Origin: Thermococcus sp. MAR1
GTDB lineage: Archaea; Methanobacteriota_B; Thermococci; Thermococcales; Thermococcaceae
Direction: 5' to 3'
NCBI RefSeq assembly: GCF_012027305.1
Contig: NZ_SNUF01000001.1
Span: 744,001 to 808,000, forward strand
Length of the DNA stretch: 64,000 bases
The first letter of the stretch is position 1. Every line of letters begins with the position of its first letter. A model generated the notes under the pieces. The model searched no databases, was not told the DNA's origin, and saw only the letters and a program-made list of their open reading frames with translations. Below are positions 3,539-32,633 of this stretch, in pieces. The position numbers and the translations under genes were made by a program.

Positions 3539-3613
3539 GGTCTTATCCCTCCGAAAGCCTCACCCTTTGGAGCGGGGGATGCAGTATTTTTGAGTCTGAC
3601 ATTCAAATCACCG

Positions 3614-3625
3614 AAAGTCTTTTAA
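3614..3625 (+). promoter_or_regulatory. TATA-like element before hairpin array
   Basis: The sequence cgaaagtcttttaagttg resembles a Thermococcales BRE/TATA box and would start a transcript near 3640-3648, just before the first hairpin of the structured region. No protein gene follows on this strand, so if the element is active its product is non-coding. Confidence 0.4.
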
Positions 3626-3639
3626 GTTGTGGAGTAGTA

Positions 3640-3947
3640 ATGGGCTCTGAAAGAGTCCTTTCAGGGATGGCTCCCTTAGAGGGCTTTCACTGTGTCCCCT
3701 GCTTTTGCAGGGGAAGACGCCGACAGGCGTCTTTCGAAAACTGCCCTTTTGGGCAGTTAGAGTCTGGGGTTAGAGTCTGGGAGGGGCTTTGAGACGATAA
3801 CCCCAATCGGGCTTTAGCCCGTAGGGGTAACGGGCCGAAGACCCGGCCTGTGAGCTGAGCTGAAAGGGGTGACCCGAGTAAGTGATGGGCCCGCAAACCG
3901 AACCGCCCCTTCACGGCGGGGAGGAGGTCAGACCAGCTCAATACTGA
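3640..3947 (+). ncRNA. Structured hairpin array, possible omega-RNA-like transcript
   Basis: A region of about 300 bases with no intact gene but dense perfect hairpins: CCCCTGC-TTTT-GCAGGGG (3696-3713), AAGACGCC-GACA-GGCGTCTT (3714-3733), AACTGCCC-TTTT-GGGCAGTT (3739-3758) and ACCCC/CGGGCT..AGCCCG/GGGGT (3800-3828). A direct repeat TTAGAGTCTGGG occurs twice (from 3757 and 3770). A TATA-like element precedes it. The 3' third also encodes a decayed TnpB-like tail, so this may be the right end plus guide-RNA region left by an IS200/IS605-type element. Transcription is inferred, not shown. Confidence 0.5.
3761..3947 (+). pseudogene. Decayed TnpB C-terminal tail (IS200/IS605-like remnant)
   Basis: One frame reads as a protein-like tail interrupted by TAG (3815) and TGA (3851): FETITPIGL*PVGVTGRRP, then AELKGVTRVSDGPANR. 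After a one-base shift near 3898 the frame continues as EPPLHGGEEVRPAQY and a TGA at 3945-3947. From memory, Thermococcales TnpB proteins end in very similar residues (SDGPAN, EPPLHGGEEVR), so this is read as a degraded transposon end with no transposase domain left. It overlaps the last codons of the ArsR gene on the other strand. The family assignment rests on recall and needs a search. Confidence 0.55.
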
Positions 3948-5164: not shown

Positions 5165-5232
5165 TATGAATCAGCGAAGCGAAGACTCCTCATCGGTTTC
5201 CCTCGGGTGTCCTCGGCCTCATCATGAGGATT
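5165..5232 (-). ncRNA. C/D box guide sRNA (candidate B)
   Basis: Minus-strand order: box C ATGATGA (5225-5219), 12-nt guide GGCCGAGGACAC (5218-5207), D' CCGA (5206-5203), 9-nt spacer, C' ATGAGGA (5193-5187), 12-nt guide GTCTTCGCTTCG (5186-5175), box D CTGA (5174-5171). Spacings match archaeal C/D RNAs and the layout closely parallels candidate A. It lies between the DUF2666 stop codon and the ridA start, with box C only 6 nt after the stop, so it is probably processed from a longer transcript. The terminal stem is weak (GAAT with TTC). Targets not identified. Confidence 0.7.
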
Positions 5233-22582: not shown

Positions 22583-22647
22583 ACATAACCACCAGTTATT
22601 TATTTCAGTCTCGGAAGTTATAAGTCTTCCTCAGAAGGGCGTCGAAG

Positions 22648-22813
22648 TGTGGGCCGGGTACAGAGGCCCGCGTTCATTCGCTCGCGCGGGTGGATGCTCC
22701 CGGCCCTGTGGGCTCGGCGTGAGCACGCTCCGCTCACGGAACCCGATGCCTCGCGGAGGCGGGTTGACCGAGCCCATGAGGAGACGCATTGTCCCCTCAC
22801 TGTCGGCAGTCAC
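22648..22813 (-). ncRNA. H/ACA-like guide RNA with two ACA-flanked hairpins
   Basis: On the minus strand two long hairpins are each followed directly by ACA. The first is closed by GGGCTCGG (22775-22768) and CCGAGCCC (22717-22710), with ACA at 22709-22707. The second is closed by GGGCCGGG (22706-22699) and CCCGGCCC (22658-22651), with ACA at 22650-22648. In the second, an inner stem CCCGCG/CGCGGG leaves a symmetric 8+8 nt pocket (AGCATCCA and CCTCTGTA), as in a pseudouridylation pocket, and the loop CGAGCGAATGAA can form a K-loop. The 5' part has another small hairpin. A minus-strand TATA (22830-22843) fits. The first hairpin's interior is branched, which is less typical. Confidence 0.72.
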
Positions 22814-32444: not shown

Positions 32445-32489
32445 ACTCTCACCAGGAGGTGTTAGGAAGAACCGGTTAAAAATGTGGGC

Positions 32490-32633
32490 TTGGCCATCCC
32501 CCACCATCATCGAAGGCAGAGCCACCCTCAGGCGGTCCGGAGACCAAGCCCTGTCCGCCCGGCATCGTCGCACCCCTTCATCGCCGCCCGAATGCTCCGG
32601 GGACCGGGCCACCGGGCGTCGTCGGATGCCGTA
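32490..32633 (-). ncRNA. GC-rich structured element, candidate ncRNA
   Basis: About 140 bases much richer in G+C than the neighbouring gaps, with nested pairing: GGCATC/GATGCC outer stem (about 32626-32631 with 32562-32567), CGCCCG/CGGGCG inside it, and GGTC/GACC in a second hairpin (32520-32560). A minus-strand TATA (ccttaaaattc, 32652-32662) predicts a start near 32633, exactly at the outer stem. No guide boxes or clean ACA were found, and the plus strand can also fold. The strand and transcript are inferred. Confidence 0.4.

Follow-up and report, generated by a model that had tools for sequence, protein, structure and literature searches.

A mobile TnpB-less IS200/IS605 element of Thermococcaceae with its own promoter and a predicted omega-type RNA

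Introduction

Between a mazG-like and an arsR-like gene of Thermococcus sp. MAR1 lies an array of hairpins followed by a frame that reads like the end of a TnpB protein. What is such an array: the remains of a tnpB gene, or an RNA gene in its own right? The preliminary description of the window (by which we mean the whole stretch of 64,000 nucleotides analysed) placed it at 3640-3947 and took it for the lone decayed tail of a tnpB gene, in which a structured RNA may have been kept. In ISDra2, according to PMC8612924, the omega RNA (reRNA) is made from the 3′ end of tnpB and the right end of the element, and about 16 nt of the flank serve as the guide.

Results

A transposable element with exact ends

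Positions 3547-3931 of the plus strand are occupied by one member of a multi-copy family of non-autonomous IS200/IS605 elements (PATE/MITE) in Thermococcaceae. The hairpins described earlier do lie inside this element, but the true feature is larger than the extent then proposed. Its ends and surroundings are as follows.

3543-3546, plus strand: target and putative TAM, TTAT; TTAC at the empty site of the relative G012 and beside many copies
3547-3931, plus strand: whole element, 385 bp; ends set by the unique flanks of about 48 copies and by empty sites in relatives
3547-3586, plus strand: left end with the subterminal hairpin GCCTCACCCTTTGGAGCGGGGGATGC; resembles the left end of the TnpB element L010
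3907-3931, plus strand: right end, terminating in ...GAGGTCAG; common to TnpB-bearing elements of the same genome
3932-3951, plus strand: host flank ACCAGCTCAATACTGACCAT, the position of a would-be TnpB guide, a role suggested by the ISDra2 reRNA; adjoins the target motif in the empty site

Searching relatives at the DNA level returned, besides short matches, full-length copies of about 340-400 bp that are dispersed over unrelated loci. The final bases ...GGAGGAGGTCAG are common to about 48 copies, with the right end falling exactly at ...GAGGTCAG and wholly divergent, unique flanks beyond it. At the other side, a TTAC-like motif precedes the copies, which open with the subterminal hairpin ...TTTTCTTTTGAAAGCCTCGCCC...GGGCGGGGATGC. 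The two genes that flank the window copy are directly adjacent in at least 28 relatives. The uninterrupted site reads GTTAC-ACCAGCTC in G012 and CCTAC-ACCAGCTC in G026, whereas the window reads CTTAT, then the element, then ACCAGCTC. Hence, the element comprises 3547-3931; it was inserted on the 3′ side of a short target motif, which was not duplicated.

Subterminal palindromes are found at both ends, as in the TnpB elements L009 and L010 of the same genome, and the last 25 bp are those of the right end of the TnpB-bearing elements of that genome save for one or two bases. Intact TnpB copies with the same 3′ end, which the preliminary description had proposed to look for, do exist in this genome. 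Neither tnpA nor tnpB nor any TnpB-like translation was found within 3547-3931. The element is mobile, and its anatomy is that of an IS200/IS605 element of the IS608 kind minus both genes, that is, of a PATE. The insertion interrupted the stop codon of the minus-strand arsR-like gene (3926-3934); the terminal TCAG of the element gives a new TGA, and the end of the protein (...IELV) is unaltered.

A promoter and a 5′ domain of hairpins

The part of the element upstream of the TnpB-like frame contains the following features.

3612-3625, plus strand: BRE/TATA promoter CGAAAGTCTTTTAA; predicted transcription start at about 3640-3643
3642-3658, plus strand: 5′ hairpin H0, GGGCTC/GAGTCC; GGCCTC/GAGGCC in most copies
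3695-3714, plus strand: hairpin H2; stems swapped in concert among copies, 22 distinct stems in 39 copies, no shuffle at the median score
3714-3733, plus strand: hairpin H3; 10 distinct stems, GACGCC/GGCGUC versus GACGCU/AGCGUC, a C-G/U-A switch at the closing pair in 14 copies
3739-3758, plus strand: hairpin H4; 27 distinct stems in 39 copies

The TATA-like element noticed earlier ahead of the hairpins is a TATA box with a BRE. Its motif, CGAAACCCTTTTAA with at most 3 mismatches, occurs 308-349 nt upstream of the right end in 38 of 44 copies, as against 1.8% of shuffles. This mismatch-tolerant pattern was used instead of a stricter first one, which had matched 15 of the 44. Transcription of an RNA from the element's own BRE/TATA promoter is strongly suggested. 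The predicted transcript, 3641-3931, folds far more stably than its dinucleotide shuffles (z = -6.3, 0/200).

H2, H3 and H4 are the three perfect tetraloop hairpins of the preliminary description, with 8-bp stems and four-base loops. As RNAalifold suffers from misaligned hairpins in the 5′ domain, we scored the hairpins there copy by copy. All three were present in each of the 39 copies tested, with scores almost never reached by shuffles, and hairpin H1 turned out to be weak. A long-range helix GGCCACYY/RRGUGGCC would close the domain; one of its positions switches from C-G to U-A in 14 copies. In copies L029 and L050, the places of H2 and H4 are taken by hairpins whose sequence is unrelated (GCCTATCC/GGATAGGC), which points to whole-stem replacement or recombination. 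The direct repeat reported earlier is a 13-nt tandem (3756-3768/3769-3781); it is private to the window copy and single in the closest relatives, L019 and L036. We did not find the five-hairpin module in TnpB loci, of which those of the same genome were read by eye and not every one has a complete element.

A 3′ domain related to omega RNA

Downstream of the hairpins, the element carries a domain of a different origin.

3777-3931, plus strand: omega-RNA-like domain, homologous to the 3′ coding end of clade-2 tnpB plus the right end
3808-3821, plus strand: nested hairpin CGGGC-TTTA-GCCCG within ACCCC/GGGGT (3800-3804/3824-3828)
3832-3849, plus strand: helix GGGCCG/CGGCCT; many compensatory changes among copies
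3866-3875, plus strand: GGG-GUGA-CCC, a stem with a GNRA-type loop cap; strongest covariation

Positions 3797-3900 align with the 3′ coding end of clade-2 tnpB, with indels and stops: the TnpB frame ITPSLEG...RGNWPKTRPEG...NETPQT corresponds to ITPIGL-stop...RGNGPKTRPV...SDGPAN in the window. Among the peptides previously read as a TnpB tail, SDGPAN indeed aligns with NETPQT of TnpB, but EPPLHGGEEV is the right end of the transposon and RPAQY* is host flank. The nested hairpin is the fourth one recognized earlier, and the TAG stop that had been seen amid its pairing is in the TnpB frame and sits in its loop. The impression that structure mattered more than coding was correct.

In an alignment of 41 TnpB-less copies, the consensus structure had 94.1% of cells paired (88.3% shuffled), a covariation score of 0.186 (0.088 shuffled, sd 0.005; at most 0.067 slid) and 68 cells altered on both sides (19 shuffled), where the shuffle tests are inflated by the kinship of the copies and the slid controls share the same kinship. 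Covariation is clearest in the stem of the GNRA loop (CCG/CGG, GGG/CCC, CUC/GAG, GUG/CAC) and in the GGGNNN/NNNCCY stem. G-U pairs are frequent, which fits an RNA better than folded single-stranded DNA. Part of the family retains the outermost guide-proximal helix of the TnpB type (ACCUCCCC.../...GGGGAGGAGGU), which is weakened to ACCGAACC... in the subfamily of the window; helix 5 of the window copy contains one A-C mismatch. When the window copy was compared segment by segment with its two closest relatives, the identities did not show stronger conservation of the omega part than of the rest, in part owing to an indel near the right end. Taken together, comparison of the copies shows a conserved structured RNA to be encoded in the element, its 3′ domain being, by homology, a divergent omega RNA.

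A covariance model built from solo copies only (R1) matched TnpB 3′ ends across all 187 positions, up to the right end, with 62-125 bits. In five genomes, cmsearch with R1 found 22 of 22 clade-2 TnpBs, each at its 3′ end, and 17 standalone loci. The similarity to TnpB 3′ ends and the omega-RNA idea of the preliminary description are both borne out, as the 3′ domain is homologous to the omega RNA of intact tnpB genes of the same genome. Omega-model matches, TnpB-linked and solo counted together, occur in 67 of 81 Thermococcaceae genomes and in all 6 genera. The genome of MAR1 has eight, four at clade-2 tnpB genes and four alone. Two of its solo loci, besides the window copy, are L003 and L016 (G000:C1 661154-661352 and 294244-294395); one is clearly degenerate (39.6 bits), and the other scores below the window copy (76.6 bits).

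Relation to HgcC and other archaeal RNAs

Rfam at the gathering score gave nothing in the region. Elsewhere in the window there are the known Thermococcales RNAs HgcF (22637-22807), HgcE (32464-32589) and the C/D RNA sR45 (5169-5229), all on the minus strand. In Rfam scans, TnpB 3′ ends match two families, sot0042, which comprises sense-overlapping transcripts, and HgcC (RF00062). The HgcC cut-off of 50 was not reached by the window (15.7 bits) or by the copies L048 (36) and L064 (30). One TnpB 3′ end, L010:1769-1921, passes it with 51 bits, and HgcC as a family appears to consist of TnpB omega RNAs.

In the relative G011, which we take to be T. kodakarensis KOD1, there are TnpB matches near 250, 425 and 743 kb and a solo match, L031, at 1,474 kb. 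At L031:1444-1730 (G011:C1, approximately 1,474,313-1,474,600), an omega RNA of the type described here follows TTAC inside a host reading frame, which resumes exactly past the right end (...MSGY / SYDNGYNDGK...). The start of L031 is an inner TTAC-hairpin that longer copies contain as well; shorter elements may therefore exist. PMC4247193 states that HgcC1-3 of T. kodakarensis start within transposase genes, that HgcC4 and HgcC5 lie away from transposase genes and are nonetheless transcribed, and that HgcC4 is encoded in the 5′ region of TK1679 with the same start site. Judged by position and anatomy and not by annotation, L031 is very probably HgcC4/TK1679, and thus a copy of the present family. 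For P. abyssi, PMC3124441 describes sRkB, sRkC, sRk48 and sRk52 as having BRE/TATA upstream and as similar to orphan OrfB/TnpB 3′ ends.

A separate lineage and its possible partners

A maximum-likelihood tree unites 41 of the 42 TnpB-less copies in a single clade (100/100; branch of 0.43), with every TnpB-linked RNA on the opposite side. This indicates an old self-propagating lineage apart from TnpB omega RNAs rather than a fresh relic, with a structure that outlived many jumps without TnpB. The only TnpB-less copy that groups with the TnpB-linked RNAs is L072. At L072:727-1133 it is a hybrid, in which the promoter and leader of the present family are joined to a TnpB-type omega end and about 42 TnpB residues are still encoded; modules have thus been exchanged.

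The genome of MAR1 encodes four clade-2 TnpBs of 436-445 aa and one intact Y1 transposase (Y1_Tnp), the latter in its one intact tnpA-tnpB element. The clade-1 TnpBs L006 and L007 were considered as partners and rejected: they are unmatched by the omega model, and L006 lies behind a serine-recombinase-like frame (IS607 type). Nearly all clade-2 TnpBs (L008, L009, L010, L011 and others) have Gly (VVGYPKGI) at the position of the second RuvC acid, so that cutting by them is not assured. The Glu of EAFTS is conserved in all 18 clade-2 TnpBs examined and may possibly stand in for the missing acid in a rearranged active site. Rearranged RuvC sites of such type can be active.

Discussion

We favor, with a probability of roughly 0.6, the interpretation that the element is a satellite that has kept a guide-RNA gene and lost the nuclease gene, and that it uses TnpA and a clade-2 TnpB in trans with its flank as the guide. 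The element most likely draws on TnpA in trans, and probably on TnpB as well. TnpA from the one intact tnpA-tnpB element would move the satellite, and a clade-2 TnpB would bind its RNA. With the flank of the right end (ACCAGCTCAATACTGACC...) as the guide, TnpB would cut or mark the empty TTAY-ACCAGCTC site after excision, and repair from a sister copy would then restore the element. If the rearranged RuvC site is inactive, TnpB would bind without cutting. More tentative, and a little short of an even chance, is the fuller proposition of a TnpB-less satellite lineage that makes a two-domain guide RNA (five-hairpin 5′ domain plus diverged omega RNA) from its own promoter and whose insertion sites are retained by TnpB encoded elsewhere in the genome.

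An alternative is a plain PATE that arose by deletion and is mobilized by TnpA in trans; its hairpins would serve TnpA as single-stranded DNA structures or be remnants, and its RNA would be without function. The two ends and the target motif agree with mobilization by TnpA, PATEs that retain the C-terminal coding part of tnpB plus the right end are known from Haloquadratum (HqIRS71) and Halanaerobium, and L072 looks like a deletion derivative that retained a TnpB-type 3′ end. However, the covariation is located in inner helices well away from the ends, G-U pairs are common and at one position outnumber every other pair, the promoter is retained in 38 of 44 copies and a single diverged omega type is common to 41 copies, so that we consider this explanation unlikely. 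It is distinctly less probable still that the solo RNA is a decoy, which occupies TnpB and thereby shields host or satellite from its cutting rather than guiding it. A scaffold that is retained but changed in its guide-adjacent part would suit a decoy, as would the number of standalone copies in five genomes, 17, which comes close to that of the TnpB genes, 22; the right end, exact to the start of the would-be guide, and the retained target motif speak against it, though TnpA needs both too.

We give very little credence to a host-domesticated regulatory RNA, acting for example as antisense to the arsR-mazG pair or via L7Ae-type kink-turns. The antisense position between two co-directional genes is suggestive, and the related sRkB, sRkC and sRk52 of P. 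abyssi bind L7Ae in vitro (PMC3124441), but copies are present at unrelated loci and the window insertion is absent from the relatives examined. Least credible of all is the decay in place of a single tnpB gene, as the preliminary description had it. The alignment of RGN-PKTRP and SDGPAN with TnpB is what such decay would leave. Against it stand the precise left and right ends, the empty sites, the single separate omega clade of TnpB-less copies, and a promoter and five-hairpin leader that are absent from the TnpB loci compared; membership in a mobile multi-copy family rules it out.

If the satellite RNA works in trans, an omega RNA without a nuclease gene suffices for a transposon to gain from TnpB-guided retention, and the cooperation of satellite and nuclease in RNA-guided systems becomes directly testable in the genetically tractable T. 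kodakarensis. Long-known non-coding RNAs of Thermococcales (HgcC, the sRk series) would be explained as omega RNAs, several of which derive from TnpB-less elements, and the 5′ domain would represent a new RNA structure joined to an omega RNA. A literature search on MITEs, omega RNA and Thermococcus found no direct report. In sum, the element combines a PATE with an omega-type RNA and has, in addition, its own promoter and a further RNA domain at the 5′ end.

The element resembles the PATEs of Haloquadratum (HqIRS71) and Halanaerobium in being transposase-free, in its subterminal palindromes, in the lack of target duplication and in comprising part of the C-terminal end of tnpB with the right end. 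By the available descriptions of those PATEs, it adds a dedicated promoter, the five-hairpin leader and a covarying omega-type RNA with a clade of its own. With the omega RNA or reRNA of TnpB (ISDra2, sot0042, HgcC RF00062) it shares the position at the right end, the core helices and the flank as would-be guide; it differs in having no tnpB in cis, an own promoter, a long 5′ domain and compensated stem changes. Trans-encoded standalone omega RNAs have reportedly been found for IscB, where, as in the satellite, the guide RNA gene lies apart from the nuclease gene, although the nuclease is of another family. HgcC4, HgcC5, sRkB, sRkC, sRk48 and sRk52 come, like the solo copies, from loci without an intact transposase gene; the papers on them predate omega RNAs, and their accessible text describes these RNAs without transposon ends, target site or guide.
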